DNA from: a virus
Direction: 5' to 3' (one strand)
Virus record (IMG/VR): IMGVR_UViG_3300031227_000019
Coordinates: 1 to 64,000 of that record
Length of the DNA: 64,000 nucleotides
Below the pieces are notes generated by a model. It was not told the DNA's origin and did not search any database. It worked only from the letters and a program-made list of their open reading frames with translations. Positions within the stretch are counted from its first letter, which is position 1. Each line of letters begins with the position of its first letter. The position numbers were made by a program, and so were the translations under genes. Below are positions 11,164 through 54,227 of the stretch, in pieces.

Positions 11164-12114
11164 TTAACACTCGATACAACCCTGGTCGGACAGCCTGCTA
11201 CCGAGCACGACGTTACTCATCTGTGTCACCTCGGAACCGAGGGTGCTTGCAAAGTTCTGAAGTGTCAGCACGCCGTCAGCAAATCGTTCGATCTGCCGTG
11301 TCAATGCTTCCAGCTCTTCACAACCGCAGCACGGCTCTGAACACTTATCCTCAAACATTAGCCCGTTATCAATCGGGCTGAGCTCCATGCACTTGTTCCC
11401 GACCATGCGGAAATTACCGTTGGGTAGCGGCGGAATACCGTTGATGAAGCGGATGCAGTCGCCTTCACCTTCCTCTTCACATACGCAGTCTTCGTTAAGC
11501 CCTTCACCGTCGATAGCGGAGAACACAATGACGGGAGCCTCCGTGCCGACCTGACTTGCGGTGATCCGCATGTTGTCGCCGGCTATGAGTTCCACGTCAC
11601 CGTAGATCGGTTCGCTTCGGTCAGCACCATTGACTACCGTGAGCCCGGCGATCCCTCGCACCATCGGGTTGATAGCGTCAGACTCCAGCGTGGTGGCGGC
11701 CGGATCAAATATGTACTCACCGGGGGGCAGCATGTCCACAGTATCGAGCACGGCGATCGTGACATACCCGAACGTGTCGTAGAAGTCACCAGCACCGGGC
11801 AGCGCGTAGGTCATGCCTTCAACGTGGCCGAGACGTGTCACGCTCGTGCTGGCGACGATCGGCGGACTGGTTGTGCCGTCATCGTAGCCAAATACAAGCG
11901 TGTAACCCGTGGGATAGATCCCGAGCCGCTGAAGATAGAATTTCGTCGGTTCCACCGCCAATCCGGCATGGACTGGTAGATCTAAACCGATAATGAAGTC
12001 GTCTGGCAACTCAATCGTTTCAGTCTGGTCTTTGCCGCTCCCCTCGTCGAGGAACGGATAAGACCGTTGACTGTTATGATTGGGCCATTGTAAATTCCAG
12101 TGTGTCATACCCAT
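11164..12114 (-). CDS. Tail fibre/baseplate protein, YPF-NGI paralogue 5
   Basis: I choose the ATG at 12114, giving 316 residues starting MGMTHWNLQWPN. That ATG overlaps the stop of the GIY-YIG gene as TAATG. An in-frame start 18 bases upstream would lie within the endonuclease gene. The family motifs are RSYPFLDEG near the N-terminus and FINGIPPLPNGNF near residue 228. A Cys-rich segment (EPCCGCEE) precedes a helical stretch, and the protein ends CIEC, matching the end of the giant paralogue downstream. The paired Cys clusters in these two proteins suggest metal binding or disulfides at a shared interface. Confidence 0.75.
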   Translation of the reverse strand: MGMTHWNLQWPNHNSQRSYPFLDEGSGKDQTETIELPDDFIIGLDLPVHAGLAVEPTKFYLQRLGIYPTGYTLVFGYDDGTTSPPIVASTSVTRLGHVEGMTYALPGAGDFYDTFGYVTIAVLDTVDMLPPGEYIFDPAATTLESDAINPMVRGIAGLTVVNGADRSEPIYGDVELIAGDNMRITASQVGTEAPVIVFSAIDGEGLNEDCVCEEEGEGDCIRFINGIPPLPNGNFRMVGNKCMELSPIDNGLMFEDKCSEPCCGCEELEALTRQIERFADGVLTLQNFASTLGSEVTQMSNVVLGSRLSDQGCIEC

Positions 12115-12845
12115 TATGCCGACTCCTTGCATTTACTGTATTGTGCCTTTTTCCTATCGCAATTACAGCGACGACAATATGCAGCAAATCCTGCCGGTTG
12201 TTGTTTGTCTTTGTTAAAGTGCTGTCTATCTTTGTATTTACGACATTTTGAGCACCATATTTTATTATTTAAGACTTTTATCGGACGACTCGCCGGGGCG
12301 ATGATTGTAGCCTCCCACTCGGTACTGGTCTGACTGGCATACCGGCATAACCACCGTTTATGGTGTCGTGCTTTGCCACCCGCTACGCGGGACATCGCAT
12401 TATGCGTTAATTCATTGTCCCGACAAAAAGCGTACAAATTCGTAATGACTTGCGAGAAACCGTCTGGATTCGTAACGATATATGTTTTACTCTTTGCCGC
12501 TAATATCGCTGCTTTACACTTCGGAGACTGCGGCACACCCCGCGTGTTACCAGCAGTAGCGCAAATGTTGAAACCTGTGGCTGCGCAGTTCAAAGTGTCA
12601 ATCCAGTATTGTTCTTTTTCAAGCAACTGCTGCTGGTCACACAACTCAATCACCTCACACGTGAACGTGGACTCTCCGTATTTTACCCACGCAGCCTGTA
12701 AATGCGGATTAACATGGGAACCGCTACGTAACTGCGACAAATGCCGCGAGTACCAACGACGGTATATATTTGCACTGCTGCCAACGTAAATCTTCTCGTT
12801 TGCAGCACAACAAATTTTATAAATTCCAGCAAGTTTAGGTAACAT
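12114..12845 (-). CDS. Free-standing GIY-YIG homing endonuclease
   Basis: A 243-residue protein. The N-terminal GIY-YIG nuclease domain shows GIYKICC and the KIYVGSS second motif, with the expected Arg (NIYRRW) and a Glu (LLEKEQYWID) about 50 residues on. A middle segment (AFCRDNELTHNAMSRVA and the following KRWLCRY) resembles NUMOD-type DNA-binding modules. The C-terminus has four cysteines in a zinc-ribbon-like CSKC-x22-CRRC pattern. The gene is visibly AT-richer than its neighbours and sits three bases after one structural gene and overlapping the start of the next, as expected for a mobile endonuclease inserted between late genes. It probably promotes its own spread by cutting related phage genomes that lack it. 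Confidence 0.9.
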   Translation of the reverse strand: MLPKLAGIYKICCAANEKIYVGSSANIYRRWYSRHLSQLRSGSHVNPHLQAAWVKYGESTFTCEVIELCDQQQLLEKEQYWIDTLNCAATGFNICATAGNTRGVPQSPKCKAAILAAKSKTYIVTNPDGFSQVITNLYAFCRDNELTHNAMSRVAGGKARHHKRWLCRYASQTSTEWEATIIAPASRPIKVLNNKIWCSKCRKYKDRQHFNKDKQQPAGFAAYCRRCNCDRKKAQYSKCKESA

Positions 12846-15455: not shown

Positions 15456-17063
15456 TTAATAGCAAGTGCCGCTGATTACTCGGAGCGTTACGCGGCTATC
15501 ATTTACCATGCTGTCCGGCACGGTATCCGCTAGAGGCTCCAAACCATCAAAAAACGAAACTTCCTCGGTTAATTTATCCACATCCACTACGTCGGCCTGC
15601 GCTGAGATCTCCACCAGCAGAATCATAGCCGTGTTCGGCGGCACGATCTTTGTCAGCAGCCGGGCGTTGTGCAACCCGATCTGATCTGTTCCGGTCGTAG
15701 CTACCTTCACTTTGACCAAATACGCATTGTTTCGTAAGACGTTTTCAATCAAAAACTGGAGTGGGTTTATGGTCGTCGGTAATTGTGCCGCTGTTGGTTC
15801 CCCAATTTTCTCGTCTCGGGTATCTAGCAAGTGTGCCAGCGTCCCGCGTCTGGCGGACTGCATGGTCTCATCGCAATCGCTCGGCGGATACCAGACCTGT
15901 TCACACTCCTCACAATCATCGACAGGCCTCAAAGCCTCCTCCACGCCTCGGGCGTGCAGTAGATCGAAGAACGCATCTACGTCAAGCGGGAACCCTCCAA
16001 GCGGCCATGTCAGTTTGGTAAAGCCGCTCGGGTCATCAGTGATAACTGTGAGCGGTACGTCTTTGTTCTCAAACACCAGTTCCGAGTAAAAACAGCTCGC
16101 CAGCCAGCCGTCGCCCATAGCGAGAGCTGACAAATCGGACGGTGTCTCTCCACGATTGAATTCATAAAATGCCAACGTGTCCGTCAGCGTGTCGCCCCGC
16201 TGCACGACATCGCCGACCTCGACGATCGGTGTCGCGTTCAGGTGGAACGAGTACGAGTGCTGGTCAGTTATGATCAACCGGTGTCGCCGGTCGACCCTGA
16301 TGTCCACAACAGTCTCCGCGGTCTCTCGCACGAGCGGTACCCCAGTCATCGCGGAGAACGCTGTCATGATCTGCCGTTTCGCCGTGCCGCCTACCATCGC
16401 GTCATACAAGGCGTTCATGATCTCTCGATAGCCAAGGCTGCTCTGCATCCTCGCACCGATCGCGTAACCGAACTGCTTATACACCGTGTCCCAGTCGAAC
16501 TCTCCGCGGAATACCCACAGCAGTGCTTCTTCATCAACTGCGATACCGTCTTCGTAAACCGTGCGTTTCGCCACGCGGACGTCGTCGAACGGGTTTGTAT
16601 TGAAAATTATGGCGTTGTCACGCAACACGTAATCGACGCCGGCCTGCCACGTCAGTGTCGGATCAGTGAAGCGATTCAGGATCAACGGCACGGTGACAAG
16701 GTCAGCCGGTCGCGGGAACGCATGATCTGGGCGGTCCTGCGGGACATCGTAAAGGTCACCGTCCCCGTAATCTGCATCGTCACCATACCGCAGCAGCGAC
16801 GTGTCGACATTGTTCCTCTCGCTCTGCCGCACATACATCGCATACCAGTTGTCGGTATGGTAAATCGGTACGGTGTAACGGCTGAGCGCGGCAATGAGCG
16901 ACAGCACGTCCAACATTGTCTGTTGCTCTACCTGAGCCTTCCCCATCACCACTGCTTTGACTTGGTCATTGCCGTTATACGTGTCCGCCCACCAGCCGCC
17001 CAACAGGGCCAGCAGGTTATTTGGTTTATCATAAACATTTGCTGGGTATGTGTACTCTGCCAT
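15456..17063 (-). CDS. Baseplate wedge-type protein
   Basis: A 535-residue protein whose ATG at 17063 overlaps the stop of the baseplate-J gene as TAATG. The N-terminal ~90 residues are helical (NNLLALLGGWWADTYNG, AQVEQQTMLDVLSLIAAL), followed by beta-rich sequence. In P2-, Mu- and T4-like baseplates the gene after gpJ/gp6 encodes the partner wedge protein (gpI/gp7), and the same order is seen here. It probably forms the arm of the baseplate wedge. No sequence motif proves this, so synteny is the main evidence. Confidence 0.6.
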   Translation of the reverse strand: MAEYTYPANVYDKPNNLLALLGGWWADTYNGNDQVKAVVMGKAQVEQQTMLDVLSLIAALSRYTVPIYHTDNWYAMYVRQSERNNVDTSLLRYGDDADYGDGDLYDVPQDRPDHAFPRPADLVTVPLILNRFTDPTLTWQAGVDYVLRDNAIIFNTNPFDDVRVAKRTVYEDGIAVDEEALLWVFRGEFDWDTVYKQFGYAIGARMQSSLGYREIMNALYDAMVGGTAKRQIMTAFSAMTGVPLVRETAETVVDIRVDRRHRLIITDQHSYSFHLNATPIVEVGDVVQRGDTLTDTLAFYEFNRGETPSDLSALAMGDGWLASCFYSELVFENKDVPLTVITDDPSGFTKLTWPLGGFPLDVDAFFDLLHARGVEEALRPVDDCEECEQVWYPPSDCDETMQSARRGTLAHLLDTRDEKIGEPTAAQLPTTINPLQFLIENVLRNNAYLVKVKVATTGTDQIGLHNARLLTKIVPPNTAMILLVEISAQADVVDVDKLTEEVSFFDGLEPLADTVPDSMVNDSRVTLRVISGTCY

Positions 17064-18703
17064 TATGAGCCTCGGTTTACGACGTTCAGTCCAATATCCT
17101 CAGCGTACAATATGAACGTGGCGGTGTTTCCCGTCACAAGTGTACTCGGAGAATCGGGCAACCATAACTCGTGCTTGTCACGGATGACAGCGCGCGTCCC
17201 GTCCGGGCGGCGAATCATCCCGTGCATGTCGACCGCACTCACGGCCATCGACCCTTCCAGGTAGTCATGGATCAGGTCAGTGATCTGCGAGGCGTATAAC
17301 ACGCCTGGGAAATCCAGATTGTTTACCATCGACGCCAGGGCCTGCTTGATCGGATCGAGATCCGGTGCCGTCTCGCCAGTGTCTTTGATGACATCGCAGT
17401 TGATCGACAAGAAGCACGGGACGCACGCCTTCACCAGCACGTCCGCCATGATATTGGCATGGTCGGCATCGACAGCGAACGCCTGGAGCTCGGTGATAAG
17501 CGGCATGGCCTGCACCGCCACGCTGTAGTCCGCGGTGTCGCCGATCGCAAGATCAACAACCGACGTAGCTGTGTCCTGGAATCGGATTACCGCCGTCTGG
17601 TAGCGGGTGTAGGCAGCCTCCACGGCAGTCTTGATGTCTGGAATGAACGAGTCGCTGCCGAGATCGTAGCCACGGTCGTCGTAGACCACCTCGAAACCGG
17701 CGATGTCCGTCGGGTCGTCCGGCCGGCGGATTTGCGAAACTTGGTAGAAGCCAGCGGCGTCATCACGATTTAACGCGAACTGCCAGACCCCGCCACCACC
17801 GAGCTTCTGAACGAGCACGCACTCTTTTCGCAATGCCACGCTCTGTGGCGTCAGTGCTGGTCTCGCGTAGATGTCGACACGGCCGCCGCCGGATACCGGG
17901 AAGATCCAATGCTGGTCACGCTCCATCTCGGGATCACCATAACCGATGATCGAGTAGTGCAGCGTGTCCGCGAGTGCGGGCAGCGACTTGAAGAGTGCGA
18001 TAATGTTCTGTCGCCCTTGCATCACCTTGGCCGGGATGCCTTCGTCAAGGCGGTTGATCAGATTCTCATTGTCTTCCGTGGCCGTGCCGCCCTGGAAGTC
18101 ATTGGACGCGTAAGCCGTGGCGAAGCGAGACGGTATCGTCTCTGGCGTGAATTTGGTGTTCTGCCGGACATTGCCGGCCTCGCCTACGTCGTTGGCCGTG
18201 ATAGGCACGGTGAACTCGTATGACCCGTCACCGCGAGGTTCCAGCGTCCGCTGGTCGAAGCTGGAGGCCGGGGAGCCGGGCGGGTTGGCTACGATCGGAT
18301 AGTCCACCGTAAAGTTCTGCCCGTTCGCGGTATAGGTCGAGTTGGCAGAGATTACGACGCTCGTGCTGCCCTCGTATACCAGGGTCATCTCACCCTTCGC
18401 GCGGGTGCCGATCTTTCGCTCGATCATGAAGTTCGACAGCACGTCGTCGACAAGATCGTCGTCGGCCAGCGTGGGATTCTCATTGAGCACGAGCAAGCTA
18501 CGCGCATCCAGCACGTTGTTGACTTCCGTCTGATTGACGCCACCGGAGATGCCGCCAGCCATAAATGCGACAATATCGTGGATTACGCCACGAGACAGTT
18601 CGACTTCCGGGTAGCGCTCTTGAATGAGCTCAGAGAGCTCAGCTTGCGCCTGCGTAACAACGTCCGGGTCGAGTTGTGAAATGTCTGTTACTTTGAGACC
18701 CAT
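17063..18703 (-). CDS. Baseplate J-like wedge protein (gpJ/gp6 type)
   Basis: A 546-residue protein. I choose the ATG at 18703 (MGLKVTDISQLDP), which has GGAGGG about eight bases upstream, rather than a GTG at 18718. The N-terminus matches the baseplate-J pattern: a helical segment with ELIQERYPEVELSRG, then a beta region with KGEMTLVYEGSTSVVIS and ANSTYTANGQNFTV, followed by GEAGNVRQNTKF. In the family this protein dimerises to build the inner baseplate ring and contacts a gp25-like protein, whose probable gene lies immediately upstream. The C-terminal 150 residues are helix-rich with an HDYLEGSMAVSAVDMHG segment. Confidence 0.85.
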   Translation of the reverse strand: MGLKVTDISQLDPDVVTQAQAELSELIQERYPEVELSRGVIHDIVAFMAGGISGGVNQTEVNNVLDARSLLVLNENPTLADDDLVDDVLSNFMIERKIGTRAKGEMTLVYEGSTSVVISANSTYTANGQNFTVDYPIVANPPGSPASSFDQRTLEPRGDGSYEFTVPITANDVGEAGNVRQNTKFTPETIPSRFATAYASNDFQGGTATEDNENLINRLDEGIPAKVMQGRQNIIALFKSLPALADTLHYSIIGYGDPEMERDQHWIFPVSGGGRVDIYARPALTPQSVALRKECVLVQKLGGGGVWQFALNRDDAAGFYQVSQIRRPDDPTDIAGFEVVYDDRGYDLGSDSFIPDIKTAVEAAYTRYQTAVIRFQDTATSVVDLAIGDTADYSVAVQAMPLITELQAFAVDADHANIMADVLVKACVPCFLSINCDVIKDTGETAPDLDPIKQALASMVNNLDFPGVLYASQITDLIHDYLEGSMAVSAVDMHGMIRRPDGTRAVIRDKHELWLPDSPSTLVTGNTATFILYAEDIGLNVVNRGS

Positions 18704-18718
18704 CCCTGGTCCCTCCAC

Positions 18719-19201
18719 CTAGTTAAGCTCCACGGGTGTGATAGCAATTGGTAAGATCACCTCTCGCTGATCACCCGCCTGTGACGTAATGACAACATAC
18801 AACTGCAAAAACCCGTCCAGCAGTGCAATCTGGTCGAGCACGGCACTGGTAAACCGATCTTCGGGATTCCATGTGTCGTCCTCTTCGTTAATCAAATTCT
18901 GCCGCACTCGGACGGCGGCGAAGTTGAACTGCGCCCGCACGTCTGCTTCATGCCGCAGTCCACCGCGTTTCGCGACTGTCAGAAAATTACTGCCTCGCGT
19001 GGCCAGATGGTAACCCATCGAGCCGAGCGGGGTCATAAATTCCAGGAGCCAGCGTTGTGCCAGCTTCTGCACGCCCGTGCAAACCGCCCCGGCAATATCG
19101 GGGCCGAATAACGTCTGATCGAGTAACACCTCTCCGCTGCTGGTAGCGCCGCGGATGGCGATAACATCGAATTTTCGTCCAACATATTGACTTGCAGACA
19201 T
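18719..19201 (-). CDS. gp25-like baseplate wedge protein (probable)
   Basis: A 160-residue protein starting MSASQYVGRKFDVIAIRG. The stretch AVCTGVQKLAQRWLLEFMTPLGSMGYHL (quoted here in outline: GVQKLAQRWLLEF then TPLGSMGY) resembles the region of gp25-like proteins that positions a helix and a buried conserved loop in the wedge core. It is encoded immediately before the J-like protein, the standard order in contractile injection systems. The classical gp25 Glu-Pro-Arg core is not obvious, so the call rests on length, order and partial pattern. Its ATG follows the upstream TAA directly. Confidence 0.55.
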   Translation of the reverse strand: MSASQYVGRKFDVIAIRGATSSGEVLLDQTLFGPDIAGAVCTGVQKLAQRWLLEFMTPLGSMGYHLATRGSNFLTVAKRGGLRHEADVRAQFNFAAVRVRQNLINEEDDTWNPEDRFTSAVLDQIALLDGFLQLYVVITSQAGDQREVILPIAITPVELN

Positions 19202-19675
19202 TTATTGCTCCCCGCCAACAGCTCCTGTGGCGATGATGTCTCCGGCTTCTTTTCGAGTCGCCTCTAACGCCATGCCGTGGTGCTGCCCGTAACGCCTACC
19301 GTGTGCGTGACAAATACATCTGCAAATCGTAGCGTGCCGGTGTCGGAACGCTCGCTCCTCACCTGCATTGTAGTCCAACTGCATCTTAACACTGACCACG
19401 TCGCCTGTCGTCCCCGGCTCCGTGGCGGACTTCATGATTTCCTCATAAGCCGTATTGAGCTCTTCTCGCTCAAAACTCGGCTTGTGCAGCGATTCGATCT
19501 TGTGCAGATCCCCCGCGAAGTCTGACGGGATCTGCCACTGCCGCTGCTCCTCTGCCAACAATGCCTTGTAAAGGATGCCAGCCTGCGCCATGAGATCGTC
19601 GATCCGCTGATTGAACACGGGGGCAACGATGCCCTTTTTCTGACCCTTTCGGCCTCCAGCTGGTCTATTTGGCAT
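19202..19675 (-). CDS. Unknown 157-residue protein in baseplate cluster
   Basis: It starts MPNRPAGGRKGQKKGIVAPV, a basic N-terminus, followed by a helical region (residues about 25-75). The C-terminal part holds a Cys/His-rich stretch, RHRHATICRCICHAHGRRYG, which could bind a metal. I recognise no family. It is encoded two bases after the sigma-like gene and directly before the gp25-like gene. The basic tail and Cys/His cluster leave open a nucleic-acid-related role with the sigma-like protein as well as a baseplate role. Confidence 0.6.
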   Translation of the reverse strand: MPNRPAGGRKGQKKGIVAPVFNQRIDDLMAQAGILYKALLAEEQRQWQIPSDFAGDLHKIESLHKPSFEREELNTAYEEIMKSATEPGTTGDVVSVKMQLDYNAGEERAFRHRHATICRCICHAHGRRYGQHHGMALEATRKEAGDIIATGAVGGEQ

Positions 19676-19677
19676 GA

Positions 19678-20469
19678 TTACACCCCGTGCCGTTCATCGA
19701 GTTGCTCCTGAATCCGTGCTTTCCGCTGACTCACGGCTCCAGGTGAGATTCCGAGCCGCTCTGCGATTTCTCTGTTCTCCAGCACAGGGGAATTATGCTT
19801 ACCCAGTGTGAAATCCAAAACCGCTTGATCAACAGGTCCAAGGTCCTGGTATACCATTTCTTCCCACATAACTCCAGCCACATCTGTGCCAGGAACCGTA
19901 GAAGCCGGTGAGTAAGGGGCTCCGGTCTCGTCTGTCAGCGAGCCAGTATTGACCCCGGGCTGCGCCTGCCGAACGTAGCCGATACGCTTCAATGATAGCC
20001 CCGTACTGGCGGCAATCTCCGCGTCACTCGGGTCACGCCCCAGATCCTCGCGTAGTCGCTCCTCGTCATCGACCAAATGCTGCCGATCGAGTATGACACC
20101 CTCCGGGATGCCGATAATCTGCCTGGATTTCCCCTGAACTCGTTGCAATCCGCGGAGTTGCGACAGCAGATGCGTCTTCATCGTGCCCTGCTGTGGGTCA
20201 TACGAATCGAAGGCCCGCAATGCCATGAGTCTTGCTTGACTCTTCGCATGTGGGCCGCCGGTTGGGGCGTACGAGTGGACTGCGGTGCTCAGGATCGGAT
20301 CAACCGCTCGCAGCAACGCACCCCGCGTGGTGGCGTCTGGTTTCTTCTGCCACGCCGTAAATGCTTCCGTGTAGGGTTGTTCCATCCGCTGGTTCGCCGA
20401 AGCACCGCCACCGAACGGCATAGTGTCATCCAGCACGGATTTCGGCCTGTTTTTATATTCAGTCGGCAT
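19678..20469 (-). CDS. Sigma-70-family-like factor (phage-encoded)
   Basis: A 263-residue protein from the ATG at 20469 (MPTEYKNRPKSVLDD). Three segments match sigma architecture in order. A region-2-like part has FDSYDPQQGTMKTHLLSQLRG followed by a basic QRVQGKSR. A region-3-like helix bundle has RLREDLGRDPSDAEIAASTG. A C-terminal region-4-like helix-turn-helix has ENREIAERLGISPGAVSQR. This is the layout of group-3/4 sigma factors, which direct core polymerase to promoters. It lies between the hub-like gene and baseplate genes, an unusual site. It may program the phage polymerase at 61815-54228 or the host core for late promoters; the sequence does not say which. Region 2 is weaker than in bacterial sigmas, so a sigma-derived anti-sigma or structural protein is not excluded. 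Confidence 0.75.
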   Translation of the reverse strand: MPTEYKNRPKSVLDDTMPFGGGASANQRMEQPYTEAFTAWQKKPDATTRGALLRAVDPILSTAVHSYAPTGGPHAKSQARLMALRAFDSYDPQQGTMKTHLLSQLRGLQRVQGKSRQIIGIPEGVILDRQHLVDDEERLREDLGRDPSDAEIAASTGLSLKRIGYVRQAQPGVNTGSLTDETGAPYSPASTVPGTDVAGVMWEEMVYQDLGPVDQAVLDFTLGKHNSPVLENREIAERLGISPGAVSQRKARIQEQLDERHGV

Positions 20470-20470
20470 A

Positions 20471-22096
20471 TTAAGTCTCCTCCGGTGCCACTTGCGGTAC
20501 CATCGTACCACCTACCCACTTATTCACGTAAAGCGGCGGACCCGCCACGGACGTCTGCGGTTCTGTGTTTTCCTGCTCCGTTCGGATATGAGCAAGCGTG
20601 AAGGCCGTTCCAGCCTTCTGGCTCTCTGAGTTGATCAGATAGGATACTTGCATCACGGTGCCGTAGATGTCCTCTACGAGGTCGTCCTGCTGGATATTCC
20701 TGGCTCCCCCCGCTTTTACCAGCACATTGGAACCCGGGCAGATGTCGAATCGTAGTTTACCCGACAGCTCACCGATGCGTCCCTTCAATGATTCTAACAC
20801 AAACCACTGATGGGCGTAAGCGCTCATCACGCCCTTCTGCGCCACTTGATCGGCCAATATGTCATTGGCGGGGAATTGTGGCTTACCCGTGACCTCGTCA
20901 ACGCTGGTGCCGATCGGATCACCCTCAACCCCCTGCGACGTTGCTGAAAAGACGTAAGGTATGACAGAGTCAGCCAGCCACTTCGGTGCAGATTTAAGCA
21001 GCACGACGCCCTTTTTTTGTCCGTCTGGCTGATACCACCCAGCGCAGCCGCCACGATCCAGCTTCATCGCACCACGATTCATGTCCCAGCCAGACATTGA
21101 CATGACTGGATGCGTAATGCCAACCGCCCTGAGCACCTGATGCAGCTGGGCGTTCAAATCTGACTGCACGTAATCTTCAGTACCGATTACCGCCCACGGC
21201 TCACCTTGCAGGCCGCCGGCGAATGGGACGATCAGACAGTCCTCGACACGTGGAATCACCGAGAAAAAATATGACGGGGCATATTCGCCTACCAGTTTTC
21301 CCCAAAGCGTAGTATTGGTAAAATTCTGGTTAGTCTCATTGAGCAACGCTTGCGCCAGTCCATGCTGAATCACTGCACCGTTGGACCCATTGAGGTCCAC
21401 CGCCAGCGGGGCGTCGGGATCGACAATGATTCGTGTCAACGCATCTTTGCTATTATCGTCACCGCCGCCGGGCTGCCCGCCAAGCAGGCTCACCTCGAAC
21501 GGATCATCATCCGTTATGGCCATCATCCACGGCTTCAGCGTGTTTGTCCACAGATCATCCTGGAATGTTGCCACCAACGAATCGTCAACGATGGGAATCC
21601 AGGTTGGGTTACCGCCGGCGCCTTCGTCGTCGCCTCGCCCCAGTGCCCTATAGGCCGCGGGGTACGTGTAGTCAGATGGGTTACCAGGGTGTGACGATGC
21701 GGAGATCGCCGACGTGTAATTGAGGTCACCGAGCCAGTGAAGCATGTTGATCGTAAAGTGAGCACCTTCATAACCCCGCCGCCAGCCGGTTCCGACAATT
21801 TTACCTTCAAAGATCTTCATCCGCACCTGATCCGGTACCCCGGGCTCGGCACTCTCCACCTGCGTGACAGTTGCCGTCAGGAAAACCTCGATCTTCTGTT
21901 GTTGCTTCAGGCTACTGATAGCAGAATGAATCGTGGCTGGATTTCCCGTCGCCACGTTACGACCAACAGCAACCAGTAGCGACGCCGTCGGGATGCTGTT
22001 CATCGCCCACGAGGATGCGTACTGCACCACGTCGTCGAACAGAAAGCCCGCGACTTCGGCTTCAACCTTCAGTTTTATTACAGCAAAAGGTGGCAT
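20471..22096 (-). CDS. Baseplate hub-like protein
   Basis: A 541-residue protein. I choose the ATG at 22096 (MPPFAVIKLKVEAEVAGFLF), which overlaps the upstream stop as TAATG. The first 140 residues contain SWAMNSIPTASLLVAVGR, a segment QKIEVFLTATV and FEGKIVGTGWRRGYEGAHFTI. This order (strand, charged loop, then F-G-x-V-x-G-W-R and a THWL-like LHWLGDL) resembles gpD/gp27-type hub proteins, which form the ring above the spike. The remaining ~350 residues are unfamiliar. It lies downstream of the tape measure gene, where hub genes are usual. Confidence 0.6.
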   Translation of the reverse strand: MPPFAVIKLKVEAEVAGFLFDDVVQYASSWAMNSIPTASLLVAVGRNVATGNPATIHSAISSLKQQQKIEVFLTATVTQVESAEPGVPDQVRMKIFEGKIVGTGWRRGYEGAHFTINMLHWLGDLNYTSAISASSHPGNPSDYTYPAAYRALGRGDDEGAGGNPTWIPIVDDSLVATFQDDLWTNTLKPWMMAITDDDPFEVSLLGGQPGGGDDNSKDALTRIIVDPDAPLAVDLNGSNGAVIQHGLAQALLNETNQNFTNTTLWGKLVGEYAPSYFFSVIPRVEDCLIVPFAGGLQGEPWAVIGTEDYVQSDLNAQLHQVLRAVGITHPVMSMSGWDMNRGAMKLDRGGCAGWYQPDGQKKGVVLLKSAPKWLADSVIPYVFSATSQGVEGDPIGTSVDEVTGKPQFPANDILADQVAQKGVMSAYAHQWFVLESLKGRIGELSGKLRFDICPGSNVLVKAGGARNIQQDDLVEDIYGTVMQVSYLINSESQKAGTAFTLAHIRTEQENTEPQTSVAGPPLYVNKWVGGTMVPQVAPEET

Positions 22097-22890
22097 TACA
22101 CGTCCTGTGGCATTGTGTTGACACGGTCTACCAGTGCGAGTAGCAACGCACCGTAACGATAAGCGGCAAGCGGGTTGGACACCCACGTACGCTTCCACGT
22201 AGCAACAGGCTCCACGGCGTTCATCGGGAACAAGGCCTGAAGGCCGTCATCGCCCAAAACTGTTTCCACGCGGCCTAGCATCTGTCCAATGTCGTCAATA
22301 GGTTGGCCGATCGATTCGATGGTCCAACGCGTGGATACTGGGGCCTCCTTGATGCGAACACTGAGATTCGAGCCCGGCAACGCGTAACTCGGGGACATCC
22401 CGCCAGCATAAGTCAACGGATGCACCACGGAATCCGCGGCAGGCGTTCGCTTGTCTATCCGCAGCGTGTCGGCGGTCAGCACCGTGACGTCCCACAGTTG
22501 CCGGAGAATGTAGTTACCGGATGACACGATATGATTGCCAGTCACATAGATGGTCTCGCCAGTGCCGTTGATTTGTGATACGTCAGTCTTGAAAATATCA
22601 CTGAAGAACGTCTCGTCATCCACCAACGGTAAGTACGTCACACGAGGATCGTAATCCGTCACGAACTCTGCCATCTCGGTCGAATGGATTATGGACAGCA
22701 GTTGCCGCACACGGTAATTCAAGAACACGCGATCTGGCTGCGTGCCAAACAAATGCGAGTACACCTTCGATAATGACGAGTTGAGTCTGCGCGGAACGAA
22801 ATTCTCGGGTATGTACTCTTCACCGTAGTAATCAGGTGCATAACCGTCGCGTGTGCGATTCATCAAAAGTGTGCGAACATGATTGATCAT
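22096..22890 (-). CDS. Tail/baseplate protein of unknown role
   Basis: A 264-residue protein starting MINHVRTLLMNRTRDGYAPD. The first 90 residues are helical and the middle is beta-rich, with ETIYVTGNHIVSSGNYILR. It has no recognised family. Its position between the tube-like protein and the hub-like protein suggests a hub or distal-tail component. Its stop overlaps the hub gene start (TAATG). Confidence 0.6.
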   Translation of the reverse strand: MINHVRTLLMNRTRDGYAPDYYGEEYIPENFVPRRLNSSLSKVYSHLFGTQPDRVFLNYRVRQLLSIIHSTEMAEFVTDYDPRVTYLPLVDDETFFSDIFKTDVSQINGTGETIYVTGNHIVSSGNYILRQLWDVTVLTADTLRIDKRTPAADSVVHPLTYAGGMSPSYALPGSNLSVRIKEAPVSTRWTIESIGQPIDDIGQMLGRVETVLGDDGLQALFPMNAVEPVATWKRTWVSNPLAAYRYGALLLALVDRVNTMPQDV

Positions 22891-35799: not shown

Positions 35800-35857
35800 T
35801 GGTTATTCCCTCCTGGAAATGTACTGGTATAGGCGTTTAGTTTAACCTCTGCGCGTG

Positions 35858-41879: not shown

Positions 41880-42809
41880 TTACGCGAAGTCGGCTCGGGC
41901 GATGCCACCGGCGTGTCCGATACTTCCACCCATCGTCTGATAGGCGAAGAATTCGAGCATGTACGCTTCACGACGAATGTACATGGTCGTATCTTCTAGC
42001 AGATACGACTTACCGATGAACTTGGGATCGGCGAACATGAACATCGAGTCGTCGGGGACCAGATCGCGCTTGATCGTGATGATCCAACGCATGTTCATGA
42101 AGTTGGCTTCAGCCCAACCGTTCTTGATGACGTCCTGGGAGAAATCTCCGCCCATTTCGTCACGTCCAAACTTCTCGATCTCCTTGATCGTCACGTTGTT
42201 GATCAGGCACGTATGCGATTCGAGATGACTCGGACCGCGCGGCATGATCTTACGGGCGTCTTGGAGGGTCTCACGGGTGATGCCACCTTCAATGGTTTCC
42301 CACTGAACGACATTGCCGTTGTACGGCACCGGGACGTCCGGGCCGATCATCAAAGCGTTGCACGCAGAGATGAATTTCGAGTCTTCTTCGGCTAGCATAT
42401 CTTTGATGCTATTATCCGAAAGGACCTGTCGAATGTCCATGACCCATGTGCGAAGCTCGTCCACGTCCTTGACGAATCGAGGCGTGACAATGCGGTCGAA
42501 CATTACGCGGTAACGAGGACCACGAATGTAGACATTGACAGGCAACGTCGCGAACGGAATCGAGATCGCAGCCGGGGAATCCGGCTCTTTGTCGACGACT
42601 TTGACAGGCTTGTCGGTGTCGACTTGCCGGTCCAACTCGTCGTTGGAAATCTGGAGGGGTGGAAGAATTCGGCGGAAGAAGCCGTCCTCACGCATCTTGG
42701 TTCGCGTGAAGTCGTTGACGGCGTCAATCGCTTGCTTCTCCATCCCGGGAGTTTGCAGTTGCTCAAACAGTGTCTCGTTGAGCAGCTGGGTATCAGTTTG
42801 GGTTGCCAT
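41880..42809 (-). CDS. Major capsid protein
   Basis: From the ATG at 42809 (MATQTDTQLLNETLFEQLQT), with GGAGGT nine bases upstream, the product is 309 residues. An N-terminal arm with MEKQAIDAVNDF and QISNDELD precedes an HK97-fold-like pattern: FDRIVTPRFVKDVDELRTW, an E-loop/P-domain-like middle with WETIEGGITRETLQDARKIM, and a C-terminal MYIRREAYMLEFFAYQTMGG ending in ARADF. It follows a probable decoration gene and is followed by a strong hairpin, as expected for the most abundant head protein. A frame upstream to 42845 exists but lacks a ribosome-binding site. A second gene (39187-38141) contains rearranged pieces of this protein. Confidence 0.8.
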   Translation of the reverse strand: MATQTDTQLLNETLFEQLQTPGMEKQAIDAVNDFTRTKMREDGFFRRILPPLQISNDELDRQVDTDKPVKVVDKEPDSPAAISIPFATLPVNVYIRGPRYRVMFDRIVTPRFVKDVDELRTWVMDIRQVLSDNSIKDMLAEEDSKFISACNALMIGPDVPVPYNGNVVQWETIEGGITRETLQDARKIMPRGPSHLESHTCLINNVTIKEIEKFGRDEMGGDFSQDVIKNGWAEANFMNMRWIITIKRDLVPDDSMFMFADPKFIGKSYLLEDTTMYIRREAYMLEFFAYQTMGGSIGHAGGIARADFA

Positions 42810-42894
42810 CGTAGCAAACCTCCGTGTTTTCGGGATGTCAGCCAATCATGGCCGATTGATTACAATGTACGCTCTGCTTTCGGAAGACCACCTG

Positions 42895-43479
42895 CTACTG
42901 CGCAGCAGCAGGAAGGTAAACCGGCCAGAACGCCAGCACGCTTACGCTATGCTCGTTCTGGAATTGACCACGGCTGACACAGCCACACGCGGGATCGGTG
43001 TACTGTCGTACGACACCAGTCGAACCACCAGCACCATCACGGTCGTTGCAAAGCACGCCGCCGGTAGCCTGGACAGTGTTGCTGGCGAGAGCCGTCAGCA
43101 ACTGGTTCGGAGCGTACGCCAAATTCGGCGCAGAATCGAACTCAGTCGATTCCAGCTCGTAGCCGCCAGTGGCGACTAGACCGGACATGTTACCCGCCGG
43201 CGAGATCGGTTGCTGCATGAAAGCACCAGCAGCGGTCGTCGAGGGGTTACTGACATCGAAGTCAGTGTCGGCCTGAAGAAGGAAGATCGGCATCTGAGCA
43301 CCGGCGATACCCATCTCAAACTCACCGCTGGCATTCACGTGAACCACGCGACCACCGAAGGCTTGAAGGGTAACGGCTGCGGCCAGTTTTGCCGAGAAAT
43401 CGAGAGCGCTCGGCTCGAACCATCCCTTGGGATGGCTGAGACAATGCTCGAACTGTAGGGAAGGGGATGCGCCTGGCAT
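42895..43479 (-). CDS. Probable capsid decoration/stabilising protein
   Basis: A 194-residue protein starting MPGASPSLQFEHCLSHPKGW, with GGAGGTG upstream. It is beta-rich with an early strand-loop-strand unit (GGRVVHVNASGEFEMGIAG, then MPIFLLQADTDFDV), a pattern seen in head decoration proteins encoded beside capsid genes. It contains several Cys (CNDRDG, CGC). It is transcribed just before the capsid gene in what looks like a two-gene unit bounded by hairpins. The exact fold is not proven. Confidence 0.6.
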   Translation of the reverse strand: MPGASPSLQFEHCLSHPKGWFEPSALDFSAKLAAAVTLQAFGGRVVHVNASGEFEMGIAGAQMPIFLLQADTDFDVSNPSTTAAGAFMQQPISPAGNMSGLVATGGYELESTEFDSAPNLAYAPNQLLTALASNTVQATGGVLCNDRDGAGGSTGVVRQYTDPACGCVSRGQFQNEHSVSVLAFWPVYLPAAAQ

Positions 43480-43500
43480 CTTAGCACCTCCGTATGCTTG

Positions 43501-43522
43501 AAAAATGACCTATCGTAGGTCG
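43501..43522 (-). terminator. Hairpin plus T-run before the decoration-capsid unit
   Basis: GACCTA / TAGGTC with a three-base loop is followed on the minus strand by ATTTTT. It lies 22 bases upstream of the decoration gene start in the 83-base gap 43480-43562. It looks like a short intrinsic terminator, or a 5'-leader hairpin of the capsid transcript. Confidence 0.45.
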
Positions 43523-43562
43523 TGATGTTACAAAAAACGCTGCGTCTCCTGCTTGTTGTCGC

Positions 43563-44018
43563 CTATTCCGCCGGTTGAGCCAAGCCCAATCCACTAAATA
43601 GTTTTGACGACGACTGCTTCACACGTGTCGTCCGAGCCCCAACATTGGGATCGGTCAACGAGTTGTACTGCGGCTGATTTGCACCAGCCGTTTTCGTCTG
43701 GGCATTCGGATCAACGCCGGAACCCAGTCGCGACAGCTCTTCAGGATTGCGGTGGCCGGCGACCTTCATCAACAGTTCAAGAACTTTGACGGGGTCTTGG
43801 CACATGGCCGCGAGCTTCTCGCGTTGAGTCGGCATGATTCGTTCATGCTCGACCATGACTTTGCAAACTTCGGGAATCATTTGATCCACCTGAGCTTGCT
43901 TCTCACTTCGAGCTACCTCAGCTGCCGCTGCCTTTTCCAGTGCCGCAGACGTCACTGTGACGTGCTGAATCACCTTCTCCGGGAGCGTCAGTTCGGGAGC
44001 TTGGTTAGTATCGCTCAT
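43563..44018 (-). CDS. Helical head-region protein, E-K-x-A rich
   Basis: I choose the ATG at 44018 (MSDTNQAPELTLPEKVIQHV), with GGAGGG upstream, rather than the in-frame GTG at 44033. The product is 151 residues. The first two-thirds are helical with LEKAAAAEVARSEKQAQ and REKLAAM. The end is disordered (TKTAGANQPQYNSLTDPN). Its composition resembles a scaffold or core protein. No family is recognised. It lies between the scaffold-like gene and the decoration gene. Confidence 0.6.
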   Translation of the reverse strand: MSDTNQAPELTLPEKVIQHVTVTSAALEKAAAAEVARSEKQAQVDQMIPEVCKVMVEHERIMPTQREKLAAMCQDPVKVLELLMKVAGHRNPEELSRLGSGVDPNAQTKTAGANQPQYNSLTDPNVGARTTRVKQSSSKLFSGLGLAQPAE

Positions 44019-44090
44019 TCTATAGCCCTCCACGACTATGGTTGCAGCTCCGAGCTGCTGGTTGGTGGTGAATAGAACGCACCTCGCTGC

Positions 44091-45644
44091 TTAGCCCTGA
44101 TAATTCATCAGTTCAAGCAAGTGTGCCTTCATTTTTTCGCGAAGTAGCCGCTCAGGCGAACCATCCGCGGCTTCCTTCTGACGATAACGACCGGACATCT
44201 GGAATGCCTTAGCCGCACTTGCGAGCTTCATACCTTCGCTCATGGGAGGCATGGCACCTTCGGGAGGCATTCCGCCGCCGGGAGGCATTCCGCCACCTTC
44301 GGGGGGCATTCCACCTTCGGGAGGCATGGCACCTTCGGGAGGCATTCCGCCACCGGGAGGCATTCCGCCACCTTCGGGAGGCAGCCCCATGCCCTCTTCG
44401 GGCGGAGGGCCAGCTTGCGCGAGGGCTTCGATCGGAATACCAAGCTCTTCAAGAGCTGCAATCAGCTCCATGATAGCTTCTTCTTCGGACGGACCACCGA
44501 GGCCTCCGCCACCCATCTCGCCGCCACCCATCTCGCCGCCGCCACCCATCATCGGGTCGCCGCCGCCACCTCCCATGATACCGCCGGGATCGCCGCCGCC
44601 ACCAAGGAGTTCGCCGAGACTTCCGCCACCTTCACCGCCACCCTCAGCGGGCATTGGTCCACCACCGCCATCGGCGCCTTCGGCATCCGACGCACCCGAA
44701 CCGCTGTCGCCAGGATTGTTATTATCCTCGGCGTCAGCCATATCGGCCGCTTGCTTCTGGTGGAAGGCAGTGAGATAGCTGCCGAACAGATCGGCATCGA
44801 CGTTGGCGTCAGCGATAGTGTCATTGAGACACTCAGCAACACTGGATTGTGCCGCCGTCTTTTCGACGCCTAGATGCGTGGCCAGCTCGTAGCCAGCCTG
44901 AAGATCGGGATTGCCAGCGGCCATCCCAGCAGTGTTACCGGCCTTCACGGCGTCGGCAGCTTGCTTGATCATGATGTCGAGCTCACTCGCTTGCTTCTCC
45001 CCAGCCGGGGCTTGGCCCGACATCTGGGTCGAAGGCGCTGCGGGTGTATTCTCGCCAGCGGCCGACGGATTCAGGTTAGCGCTGGTGGCCTGAGCCTCGG
45101 CCAGTGCTTCCTTCGTCAGTTGACCACCGAGACCGTTGGTGAGGTCAGCAAGAATGCCGTTGGCCAGACCGTCACTGAGCGTTTTCAGCTCACTGACACT
45201 GGCGTTGGCATATTTGTGACCATCGAGAGAACTGTTGTCGGTGGCCGCGGGATGTGAAGTCCCGGGGTCATCCTTACCGGCTTTGTAGTCGTTCTCCACC
45301 GAAGGGTCTTCCCCGGTAGCAGACTGGGACGTGCCGATATTCAATTGAGCGTCATCCTGACGACCGTCCGTGTTATCGGGGGTCTGGTCGACGCCGGGTG
45401 TACCTTGATCGGCTTTCACGTCAGAAGCATTTTCGCCGGAGCGAGCCCCTTCAGTGGCCGATTGGCCCCGGTTATCGACACTCGTGGTCGGATGCGTGGA
45501 CGAACCTTGGTAACCTCCCGGATCAGCAGGAGTAGGAGACTCGCCCTGCTTGACGCGGGCGGCCGCCTGCTTCTCCGTTTGGATTTCGTCCGCAAGCGAA
45601 TGGAGAGCCGAAAATAAACGGCCCTGCTGAGCGTTAGCGGTCAT
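44091..45644 (-). CDS. Low-complexity scaffold/core-like head protein
   Basis: A 517-residue, mostly disordered protein. The N-terminal 150 residues are polar, rich in Asp, Ser, Thr, Gly and Gln. The middle is helical with EKQASELDIMIKQAADAV and EKTAAQ. A Gly-rich section follows, then tandem GGMPPEG and GGMPPGG units (residues about 420-475). A charged helical C-terminus ends HLLELMNYQG. Its place directly after the protease gene and before the decoration and capsid genes is where prohead scaffolds and core proteins lie. A Shine-Dalgarno AGGAG sits in the loop of a GTCAA/TTGAC hairpin (45648-45662) before the ATG. Scaffold function is inferred. Confidence 0.55.
   Translation of the reverse strand: MTANAQQGRLFSALHSLADEIQTEKQAAARVKQGESPTPADPGGYQGSSTHPTTSVDNRGQSATEGARSGENASDVKADQGTPGVDQTPDNTDGRQDDAQLNIGTSQSATGEDPSVENDYKAGKDDPGTSHPAATDNSSLDGHKYANASVSELKTLSDGLANGILADLTNGLGGQLTKEALAEAQATSANLNPSAAGENTPAAPSTQMSGQAPAGEKQASELDIMIKQAADAVKAGNTAGMAAGNPDLQAGYELATHLGVEKTAAQSSVAECLNDTIADANVDADLFGSYLTAFHQKQAADMADAEDNNNPGDSGSGASDAEGADGGGGPMPAEGGGEGGGSLGELLGGGGDPGGIMGGGGGDPMMGGGGEMGGGEMGGGGLGGPSEEEAIMELIAALEELGIPIEALAQAGPPPEEGMGLPPEGGGMPPGGGMPPEGAMPPEGGMPPEGGGMPPGGGMPPEGAMPPMSEGMKLASAAKAFQMSGRYRQKEAADGSPERLLREKMKAHLLELMNYQG
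44244..44393 (-). repeat. 75-bp direct repeat encoding MPPEG/MPPGG units
   Basis: Two nearly identical ~75-bp units begin at 44244 and 44319 and encode Gly-Gly-Met-Pro-Pro-Glu-Gly arrays. Similar MPP-rich repeats occur in the gene at 57341-56373, although the two proteins are otherwise different. Confidence 0.8.
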
Positions 45645-45685
45645 AGTGTCAACTCCTTTGACGGTGAGGCGATCCCGTGTGTGAC

Positions 45686-47206
45686 CTAAACTGCATAATT
45701 TTGCAGGACGGCCAGGGACGCTGTCAACTCATAATTGGGATCTGCGTCTTGTACCGATCCGAGGAAGGCTAGCTTGTAGAGGCAATACTCTTGGGCTAAC
45801 TTTTCCGCTGGATCACAACGTGCTGAGGCAACCTTTTCACGTTCTACTGGGCTTCGTAAACTCGGTTGCTCCTGCGTCAACGCCGCCCGTGTAACTCTGT
45901 TATACACAGAATCGACACGTAACGACAAGTCCATTGCATGCTTCGCAGCCCAATTTGCGAAGATTGGCGGGGCAGCGGCCTCTGCTGGGACATACCCGCT
46001 GGACTGGATACGGTCTGGTAAATCACCGTTCTCCAGTAATCGAGTATACGCTCCTGGGAGCTCCCTGACTACCACCCCTGCTAATTCTGCTGCTTTTTCA
46101 TGCCCGTGATCCGTAGCCACTTCAATGAAGCGATGCAGCGGAAGGCAGATTCTCTGGTCAGCCAGCGCTCGAAGCGCCAATGCAAATTTCTCCCGGAACA
46201 GCGGGGGAAGCTCCAAAGCAGTGTCACCACCTTGGACGCTGGGCTCGAACGCTAAAACATTCGCAGTTTGACAACTGCAACGTCCATTTGCAATGTCAGA
46301 CTCAATGTCTGATAGCTCGTAGGCCAGCTTAATCATCTGCTGGACATTTGCCGGCTGACCGGCGTCCACCATCAACTCGTAGGGCACTGTAATGCCCATT
46401 TGCTTCGCCAATTCAGCACTCTTGATGACCCCACAACCACGGGCTGCGGCAGCCTTCTCCAGTACCCCTGTGACGTACGCGATTCGATCGGCCGGGCGAA
46501 AAACATGGCTAATATCAAAAAATACCGGACGCGGGTTATCCGCGTGCAGCTGATGGATACCGCCGCCGATTTCAACCAAAGCACCGATATTACTCTTCAG
46601 GCCACCGGCTTTGCACATGCCACCTTCTTGTGGGCTGGCACAGTAATCCTCGACCCTGGGAGCCTTATTGCCGCAGTACGAACAGACGTCGTGTGCGACC
46701 TTACAAGCCATCGAGACAGGAATTTCCCGTCCTGAGGCCAGTTTCTCCATCTCGCGATCGGCGATAAGTCCGCCGTTTCGCTTCGCAGCCGCATCGGTAC
46801 TATACAACGCTGCCACAAGTTCAATACGCTTCATGGGCTCATGAAACGCTGACTTGACCAGCCGACCGTACGACTTCTTCTTGTCTTTGTTTTTGTGGTT
46901 TCGGAAGAAACAAGCGTGCTTCACGAACGACGGATGATGATTTCGACACGTTTCGCGCCTGAAGCCGTCTCCGTTGCGGTTCGCCCCGTAGTCTTCCGTG
47001 GCCCCAACTGCTAGGAGATGCACCAGAACCTCGTCCTGAGCCGCCTTCTCCAGCAATTGATCTATTTCCTGCAACACCACAGACGACGCCCGCTTTACGA
47101 GATCCGCCCTGTCCGCCCCGATGAGGCCGCGACTGGATCGCTTGATCATCGTGACGATTGGCTCATCAAACGTGAGTGAGTCTGGTGTTATTACTTTTAC
47201 GTGCAT
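45686..47206 (-). CDS. Prohead protease (serine-type, probable)
   Basis: A 506-residue protein. The N-terminal 200 residues match a phage head-maturation protease pattern: YGANRNGDGF (residues 73-82), KHACFFRNHKNKDKKK with candidate catalytic His97, YGRLVKSAFHEPMKRIEL, then EIPVSMACKV with candidate Ser165, followed by CSYCGN (175-180) and DYC/GGMC (189, 198), probably a metal-binding cluster. The rest is helical and holds six E-K-x-A tetrapeptides, so it may be a core or self-processed tail. It is placed before the scaffold-like and capsid genes, as usual for proteases that mature the head. Catalytic residues are proposed from pattern, not proven. Confidence 0.7.
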   Translation of the reverse strand: MHVKVITPDSLTFDEPIVTMIKRSSRGLIGADRADLVKRASSVVLQEIDQLLEKAAQDEVLVHLLAVGATEDYGANRNGDGFRRETCRNHHPSFVKHACFFRNHKNKDKKKSYGRLVKSAFHEPMKRIELVAALYSTDAAAKRNGGLIADREMEKLASGREIPVSMACKVAHDVCSYCGNKAPRVEDYCASPQEGGMCKAGGLKSNIGALVEIGGGIHQLHADNPRPVFFDISHVFRPADRIAYVTGVLEKAAAARGCGVIKSAELAKQMGITVPYELMVDAGQPANVQQMIKLAYELSDIESDIANGRCSCQTANVLAFEPSVQGGDTALELPPLFREKFALALRALADQRICLPLHRFIEVATDHGHEKAAELAGVVVRELPGAYTRLLENGDLPDRIQSSGYVPAEAAAPPIFANWAAKHAMDLSLRVDSVYNRVTRAALTQEQPSLRSPVEREKVASARCDPAEKLAQEYCLYKLAFLGSVQDADPNYELTASLAVLQNYAV

Positions 47207-47207
47207 A

Positions 47208-48485
47208 TTACGGGCCTCCGCCAGGGGGTGTGCCGTTGAGCGATTGAATACCTTGAGCTGGGCTTGGATTTGGCCGCCCCCACTGTGTCAGTGTCGAGCC
47301 AATAAGTCCAAGAACGCTACCGGTCCGTTTACCGGCTTTCCCCGGCGTATGCGGCACTGGTGCAGGCGTATTTCGCTTACGTGACTGCGTTACCTGCTCC
47401 TGCAACAGTTTCATCTGTGGCTCAGTGAGTTTCTCTCCTTTGAACATATCATGCTTACCGGTGCGCGGATGCGTAATTGTCTTCGTACCACCAAACTCTT
47501 TGCCGCCCACCCACGGAATATTCTGCGGTACCGTGACCGTTTTGCCACCCACCTTGGGAACCCACTGAGGTACTGTAAACGATTTTCCGCCCAACGGCAT
47601 CTTATTCGGCATCGTGAATCGCGGACCTGTGGTGGTTTTAGCGGGTAAAGGTGCCTTCTTTACCCATTGCTCTCTGAGTTTTTTGTCGATGACACTTTGA
47701 GAGCCTTCCTCCAACAACACGTCACGAGCCTCGGCTGGCCCCATCGGTGCATCCATACGCGCATTGTGGGCTTTTGCCGCACGCCAATTCCTGATCTTGG
47801 CGATTGGCTTGTCTATGCCAAAATGCCCGGCAGCTCCGCCAGCCCCCGTCATGCCGGCACCTCGCACAAGCGTGTTCAGGTTCGTGGCATCCTGAAAAGT
47901 GTAGGTACCAAACTGTTTACCCATGTCAATCACATCACCACGCTCAAACGCATCATTGAACAAAGCCTGCCGGGCCCCGGCGTTATGATGCTTCTGCGTA
48001 GCTTGACCCGAACCCTGTAGGCCAAGTACCTGCGATAAACGCCCAGTCTCCGCAATGTCCTTCTGCGTTGTAGCATCCGTGAATGGTAGGCCGGTAAGGG
48101 GATCTGGTTGCCCATCAGCCGATAGCTGAACCCTACCCAGCCTATAATGGTAATCCGCCACGTTTTTATTAAGCGGAGTGTCCGTCGGTGCTTTCATATT
48201 AGCGATCGCACCACCCGCGGCGCCGAGACCGCCACCAAGCGTCGCACCCATCAGTGCATTACGCAACCATCGCTTCTTCTTCCGCTTGCTCATGATGGTG
48301 GCCAGCAGCCCGCCGCCAAGGCCTACACCTGCACCCATCATTGCCATATTTGGCGTGCTGGTCCAGTCGATCGCTGCTTTGGTCATGTCCGCCGCAGGCT
48401 TACACGCGCCAAGCTGCGCACGGACAGCTACCAATTCGGCAGCTTTCTCCAGCGTCAGCTCCGCAGGATTAAATGACTGATCCAT
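47208..48485 (-). CDS. Glycine-zipper membrane-like head protein
   Basis: A 425-residue protein starting MDQSFNPAELTLEKAAELVA. Two Gly-rich hydrophobic segments (MAMMGAGVGLGGGLLATIM, about residues 47-65, and ALMGATLGGGLGAAGGAIA, about 77-95) flank a basic KRKKKRW loop. That arrangement suits a helical hairpin in a membrane. The second half has repeated short units (GGKSFTVPQWVPKVGGK and GGKTVTVPQNIPWVGGK). It may be an internal virion protein that enters the host envelope on infection. The start overlaps the upstream gene by 17 bases. Confidence 0.6.
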   Translation of the reverse strand: MDQSFNPAELTLEKAAELVAVRAQLGACKPAADMTKAAIDWTSTPNMAMMGAGVGLGGGLLATIMSKRKKKRWLRNALMGATLGGGLGAAGGAIANMKAPTDTPLNKNVADYHYRLGRVQLSADGQPDPLTGLPFTDATTQKDIAETGRLSQVLGLQGSGQATQKHHNAGARQALFNDAFERGDVIDMGKQFGTYTFQDATNLNTLVRGAGMTGAGGAAGHFGIDKPIAKIRNWRAAKAHNARMDAPMGPAEARDVLLEEGSQSVIDKKLREQWVKKAPLPAKTTTGPRFTMPNKMPLGGKSFTVPQWVPKVGGKTVTVPQNIPWVGGKEFGGTKTITHPRTGKHDMFKGEKLTEPQMKLLQEQVTQSRKRNTPAPVPHTPGKAGKRTGSVLGLIGSTLTQWGRPNPSPAQGIQSLNGTPPGGGP

Positions 48486-54107: not shown

Positions 54108-54227
54108 GACAGCGCTCCGTCCCTGGTACGCGGGGTGATCGTTTCACTACATTCTATCCTATCAGGAAGCGTAGCGGAATACGATATAGCCCTACCCTGT
54201 TATTTTAGCTTCTTCCGGTTATATCTG
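54108..54227 (-). promoter_or_regulatory. 120-base gap upstream of the 849-residue protein gene
   Basis: The minus strand is AT-rich in its first half. It holds a -10-like TAGAAT about 60 bases before the ATG, but no convincing -35. A weak promoter or a phage-specific promoter is possible. No strong hairpin is seen. A GGAG ribosome-binding site precedes the ATG at 54107. Confidence 0.25.

Follow-up and report, generated by a model that had tools for sequence, protein, structure and literature searches.

The stretch of DNA analysed in this study (the window) is 64 kb long and belongs to a virus record of 104,371 bases in which nearly all genes lie on the minus strand. A gene for a protein of the sigma70 family was located among the baseplate genes of the window (Table 1). 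Its reading frame starts with an ATG at 20469, with an GGAGGAGA ribosome site just 5′ of it, and its stop ends at 19678; the GTG start of a longer version, at 20511, falls within the hub-like gene. The ATG is one base past the stop of the hub-like gene and the stop is two bases ahead of the start of the next gene, indicating that the sigma gene is a member of a tight operon.

The product of the upstream gene shows 35% identity to L004:8313-9983, a protein of the closest relative. It gave no profile match itself and is designated as putatively hub-like from its position; in Arash, the equivalent place is taken by a gene annotated as a cell wall hydrolase. The small protein encoded directly downstream of the sigma gene has an L004 homologue in the matching place (E 2e-24), and gp11 fills this slot in Arash. 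For the gp25-like protein, the family profile matched the baseplate wedge subunit 9euf (E 2e-4). The identification of the tail-sheath protein in the window's record was also supported. The slot originally predicted for the sigma gene, between a hub-like gene and gp25/J-like genes, was recovered, with the J-like protein confirmed, the gp25-like protein assigned by family profile and the hub-like protein by position. A GIY-YIG homing endonuclease gene is present inside the baseplate array (12114-12845, minus strand; Pfam 6e-13), and a homologue was seen at L008 (11581-12420), where it separates the gp25-like from the J-like gene and is encoded on the opposite strand.

Table 1. Coordinates of the features described in the window
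Feature	Position	Strand	Basis or remark
Baseplate J-like protein	17063-18718	-	Pfam PF04865 5e-10; PHROG 6 1e-16
gp25-like baseplate wedge protein	18719-19201	-	Family profile only
Small conserved baseplate-operon protein, no assigned function	19202-19675	-	Directly downstream of sigma
Sigma70-family protein, 263 aa	19678-20469	-	Pfam, family profile, PHROGs, structure match
Sigma region 4 helix-turn-helix	about 19699-19782	-	
Sigma region 3	19957-20061	-	
Sigma region 2 core SYDPQQGTMKTHLLSQLRGL	about 20143-20205	-	
Hub-like baseplate gene	20471-22120	-	Directly upstream of sigma; start uncertain, between 22198 and 22120
GTTAAACTA	35838-35846	-	Gap upstream of tail sheath gene; same motif class as GCTAAAATA
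GCTAAAATA	54201-54209	-	Gap downstream of beta′C, upstream of 51558-54107; like Arash/D69 structural-strand motif
RNA polymerase beta′C, 633 aa	54228-56129	-	
RNA polymerase beta + beta′N fusion, 1495 aa	57370-61857	-	NADFDGD, clamp coiled coil; putative sigma partner

Assignment to the sigma70 family

When the window sigma was searched against Pfam as a single sequence, Sigma70_r3 (E 1e-7) and HTH_24 exceeded the cut-off, Sigma70_r4 and r4_2 (E 1e-4) were slightly below it, and Sigma70_r2 was not found. The HMM search suggested along with the original prediction was thus positive for region 3, just short of the cut-off for region 4 and negative for region 2. PHROGs gave weak matches to two phage sigma families. 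A family profile was built from the window sigma and 11 relatives (12 sequences); Sigma70_r3 was detected in all 12 members and Sigma70_r2, weakly, in four. Among the PDB matches listed for this profile there were sigma factors only, the best being SigA in 8h3v (E 5.6e-17), aligned over regions 2.1-4.2. The AlphaFold model of the window sigma was of moderate quality (pLDDT 68, pTM 0.36). All 50 PDB matches listed by Foldseek for this model were sigma factors, with E values down to 2e-8; their TM scores were low (about 0.3), as the model does not fix how the domains are placed relative to each other. Judged by sequence homology across regions 2, 3, and 4, membership of the sigma70 family is confirmed, and the sigma-like segments claimed in the original prediction hold, given the profile match over 2.1-4.2 and Sigma70_r3 above the cut-off. 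The 12-sequence profile result rules out a chance likeness of some helix-turn-helix protein. The Arash homologue, Gp10, carries the annotation RpoS. A recent capture of a host RpoS is not supported, as the SigA sequences in the PDB outscore RpoS, and is also disfavoured by the fact that the family is highly diverged, yet has kept its baseplate slot.

Region 2 of the window sigma is unusual. Where bacterial sigmas have the core FSTYATWWIRQ, the window sigma has MKTHLLSQLRG and the Arash sigma has LSTHVYNWTRK. Across the baseplate-sigma family, an invariant His takes the place of Tyr430 of sigma70, a residue that stacks on the flipped −11 base. The aromatic residues that melt the −10 element in sigma70 (Tyr430, Trp433, and Trp434) are missing from the window sigma, which has His followed by Ser/Gln and has lost the Trp dyad of region 2.3; Arash Gp10 has His, Asn, and Trp at these positions. 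The second sigmas carried by Arash-like relatives retain the Y and the WW. The region 2.3 aromatics are not essential for membership of the sigma70 family, and ECF sigmas differ there too. From the altered region 2.3, promoter opening by the baseplate-sigma family would be expected to differ from that by sigma70.

Relatives of the sigma and the phage RNA polymerase

A single-sequence search of IMG/VR with the window sigma gave no relative, whereas alignment-based searches did retrieve relatives: profile scans of IMG/VR yielded 16 loci, and a metagenome bin supplied a further one. Among annotated phage records, only that of Salmonella phage Arash (Gp10) was matched directly, and from it the Vibrio phages D69, D181, and D148 were reached. 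Gp10 is 26% identical to the window sigma across half of the protein, and the polymerases are 31% identical. In the closest relative (L004, on the 194-kb contig G001), 16 homologues of window genes surround the sigma gene in conserved order. Wherever the neighbours were readable, the sigma gene was flanked by hub/hydrolase homologues on one side and gp25/J homologues on the other, with identities as low as 20-25% (Arash, D69, L004-L006, L008, L014-L017, and L072-L074); the sigma neighbourhood of L007 is not clear.

The two polymerase genes of the window lie 34-42 kb from the sigma gene, on the same strand and among structural genes, in agreement with the original description of a sigma gene distant from the polymerase genes yet in the same array. 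The Pfam scores (Rpb2_6 2e-52, Rpb1_2 2e-26, and Rpb1_5 4e-23) identify a multisubunit polymerase with an intact catalytic motif, in which beta′ is split after the first double-psi barrel. Alignment with Salmonella RpoB/RpoC revealed a retained beta′ clamp coiled coil and no N-terminal zinc ribbon. The flap tip is short in the polymerases of the window and of its closest relative but not in those of Arash and D69. In bacteria, the beta′ clamp coiled coil is the docking surface for sigma region 2 and the beta flap tip is the usual dock for region 4. With the window polymerase as query, by which a very divergent set could be missed, no second polymerase set was seen in G000 (104-kb fragment), G001, Arash, or D69. 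In G001 (65071-69435), GADNDGD replaces NADFDGD, with the three aspartates kept. In G004 (42547-48069), the contig of L007, the polymerase matches fall in a single open frame of 2493 residues, perhaps a full beta/beta′ fusion.

A homologue of the window polymerase, of the fused type, is present in 12 of the 18 records with a baseplate sigma; the remaining six gave no polymerase match and are all fragments (10 to 117 kb). Conversely, no baseplate sigma was found in six phages outside the group that have related polymerases (Rhizobium RHph_Y65, Vibrio 1.031.O, Vibrio Va2, Yersinia YerA41, Cobetia Carin-5, and Escherichia EP_H11). We define here an Arash-type baseplate sigma group by homology to Gp10, the slot between hub/hydrolase and gp25/J genes, and a fused beta/beta′N polymerase, all of which are found in the window phage. 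Eight baseplate-sigma records carry a second, canonical sigma, which lies about 8-10 kb from the polymerase in all seven of them where the polymerase was also found. Searches with PF04542, PF04545, PF04539, and a second-sigma profile found no second sigma in the window's record or in G001, and none was found in the contig of L007. Arash Gp196, a second sigma of this kind, was rejected as the counterpart of the window sigma.

Virion content of Arash and the proposed use of the sigma

The Arash virion was reported to contain 116 proteins, among which the beta fusion Gp206 has the highest number of spectra (3516), the beta′ protein Gp216 has 1210, and the sigma Gp10 has 467 with 100% coverage, while the second canonical sigma Gp196 is absent from the list (PMC10585845). 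The authors list sigma and polymerase in the particles and name two possible reasons, one of which is early transcription (PMC10585845). For the 105 proteins that could be assigned to GenBank numbers up to gp239, we normalized the published counts to gene length. Among these, Gp10 ranks first in unique peptides per residue (10.3 per 100 residues), and its spectra per residue (2.00) are level with those of Gp206 (2.31) and Gp216 (2.00) and above the values for Gp8 and Gp11-Gp14, which are encoded next to it among the baseplate genes (0.7-1.5). The list also includes cytoplasmic enzymes such as ribonucleotide reductase and primase (PMC10585845), indicating some carry-over. These data suggest that sigma and polymerase share the Arash virion at a similar level, as a stoichiometric holoenzyme, which is suggested rather than proven since spectral counts are a rough measure and cytoplasmic enzymes were present in the preparation. 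By analogy, the window phage probably packs its sigma together with its polymerase. The original prediction of a holoenzyme specific to the phage that is produced late and might be packaged gains support from the place of Gp10 and both polymerase subunits among the best-covered Arash virion proteins, from the same-strand sigma and polymerase genes among structural genes, and from the retained beta′ clamp coiled coil. Neither a lack of significant matches to sigma profiles nor an absence of polymerase and sigma peptides from virions together with early expression, the two outcomes named as speaking against that prediction, was encountered.

Taking position, conservation, co-occurrence, and virion content together, the simplest fit is that the window protein is a divergent sigma70-family initiation factor that serves the multisubunit RNA polymerase encoded by the phage. 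The sigma would be expressed late with the baseplate operon, the polymerase genes lying on that same strand amid structural genes, and may bind the polymerase via the beta′ coiled coil. Both would enter the virion at similar abundance and be injected along with the DNA, so that early transcription in the next cell could start at early promoters without host sigma. We regard such a virion-packaged, sigma-dependent polymerase, with a sigma dedicated to it, as the best reading and hold it with moderate confidence. Counting against it are the shortened beta flap tip of the window polymerase, the carry-over of cytoplasmic enzymes into the Arash preparation and the roughness of spectral counts, the failure to establish an early promoter motif in the window phage (see below), and the distance between the window sigma and Gp10, given that the virion data are those of Arash and would apply to the window phage by analogy.

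Three other uses of the sigma were considered, here in descending order of likelihood. The sigma may pair with the phage polymerase but act in the same infection as a late-gene factor, its presence in virions reflecting carry-over or tight binding to the polymerase with no function once injected. The late-side operon, the other cytoplasmic enzymes in the Arash particle list, and the separate motif class of the structural strand (CTAAAATA, see below) are consistent with this; nevertheless, Gp10 has the top unique-peptide density of the 105 proteins, level with the polymerase, the second sigma went undetected in the particle, and a late-only factor would need no linkage to the baseplate operon over such divergence, so that we consider this rather unlikely. 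Redirection of the host core polymerase to phage promoters, the alternative raised in the original prediction, is how most characterized phage sigmas act (PMC7824862), T4 gp55 and the sigmas of group 2 jumbo phages among them, and the window sigma retains core-binding-like regions 2 and 3. Yet the sigma is found together with the polymerase of the phage itself and is lacking in phages of other groups, in Arash its virion level tracks the phage polymerase, and packaging gains no support from host polymerase data. Host redirection is therefore less likely than a phage holoenzyme, and we think it improbable. A sigma fold exapted for a baseplate function (structural, in assembly, or as a pilot protein), with no role in initiation, would suit the slot that is constant across great divergence as well as the loss of the DNA-melting aromatics of region 2.3, but region 3 can still be recognized in every member, as can region 4 in the window sigma, and the level in Arash goes with that of the polymerase and not with that of the baseplate neighbours; we regard this as very unlikely.

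Comparison with known systems places the proposed packaged holoenzyme closest to Arash, which, like the window phage, has the homologous sigma in the same slot (Gp10), a beta/beta′N fusion (Gp206), and a separate beta′C (Gp216). Arash, in whose virions sigma and polymerase peptides were seen, is distant from the window phage and differs in having the second canonical sigma Gp196, which was not found in the window's record; the Arash paper lists the proteins without a holoenzyme model (PMC10585845). As is proposed here, the phiKZ-like and AR9-like jumbo phages pack beta/beta′ homologues in the virion and use them for early genes; like the window phage, they have beta′ split after the first double-psi barrel. 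However, their virion enzyme consists of five or more polypeptides without sigma and is complemented by a second, non-virion set (PMC7598289, PMC7824862), whereas the window phage has a beta/beta′N fusion, one polymerase set found, and a sigma70-family factor. AR9 gp226 and phiKZ gp68 are promoter-specificity subunits that bind the polymerase in a sigma-like manner, but both are sigma-like in structure alone and belong to non-virion enzymes, gp226 having 9.6% identity and no helix-turn-helix (PMC9209446), while sigma regions 2-4 of the window protein are recognizable at the sequence level. Group 2 jumbo phages, T4 (gp55), and cyanophages encode a sigma-family factor, as does the window phage, but have no RNA polymerase of their own and use the host core; in the literature examined, no virion packaging of their sigmas is described.

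According to reviews, jumbo phages that encode a polymerase have no sigma, and those that encode a sigma have no polymerase (PMC7824862, PMC7598289). The group described here has both, with sigma homology at the sequence level, and we found no published description, in the open-access literature, of a virion holoenzyme with a sigma70-family subunit. These data suggest a novel form of the virion-polymerase strategy. The proteomic data already published indicate that the Arash particle carries sigma and polymerase jointly; if our reading is true, a complete bacterial-type holoenzyme is injected. Start-site recognition by a virion polymerase becomes directly testable in Arash, and the result bears on the relation between sigma-dependent and sigma-free viral polymerases.

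Promoter-like motifs

The gaps before minus-strand (non-structural) genes of Arash carry TGGTATAAGtAAagTGTAA, and those before the non-structural genes of D69 carry TGtTATAAGtAAnaTGtAA. The two phages, from different host genera, share before these genes a phage-specific, strongly strand-biased TGkTATAAGtAAnnTGtAA, for which a model-based scan gave 42 sites in Arash (41 minus) and 32 in D69 (30 minus). The element resembles an extended −10 with a last base G instead of T, plus a downstream TGTAA, and is accompanied in D69 by a weak upstream element. That two phages of different host genera share it speaks in favour of the packaged holoenzyme. A TG-extended −10 could be read by host sigma70 too, which counts against the packaged holoenzyme. 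A second motif class, CTAAAATA, favours the structural strand. At several divergent gaps in Arash, both classes stand back to back on opposite strands.

It is possible that one core enzyme is used with a switch of sigma, in which the packaged baseplate sigma would read the early TGkTATAAG promoters of Arash and D69, the second, canonical sigma, produced inside the cell, would take the late CTAAAATA-type promoters, and the window clade, in which no second sigma was found, would be a one-sigma version. We put this forward only tentatively. If true, it would be an alternative to the two-polymerase strategy of phiKZ.

In the window's record, which holds mostly structural genes, no convincing early promoter motif was found: neither the TGkTATAAG motif nor that of G001 occurs in its gaps, and a sigma70 scan of the window at 50-64 kb was at chance level. 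The sites GCTAAAATA and GTTAAACTA give weak support for a structural-strand motif because the pattern was fixed partly after seeing them.

Several further motifs were observed. At about 109,247, 137,629, and 139,405 of the Arash genome, a minus-strand GGTATAAG overlaps a plus-strand CTAAAATA back to back (CTTATACCCTAAAATA), as if the two promoter classes were mutually exclusive. The only intergenic plus-strand GGTATAAG of Arash, at 11588, is immediately before gp9 and the sigma gene gp10; it may be accidental, about three such octamers being expected by chance per strand. The plus strand of G001 has an intergenic motif of its own, AGCTAAATt-N12-GCGTCATATATAGTG, in about nine copies (e.g., near 48407-48473), which often directly follows a terminator-like sequence. 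In the window's record, a repeat GGTTTCTAAGTACC (reverse GGTACTTAGAAACC) occurs on both strands, at 38829, 64669, 80207, 96240, and 103227, in three cases within the gap ahead of a gene.
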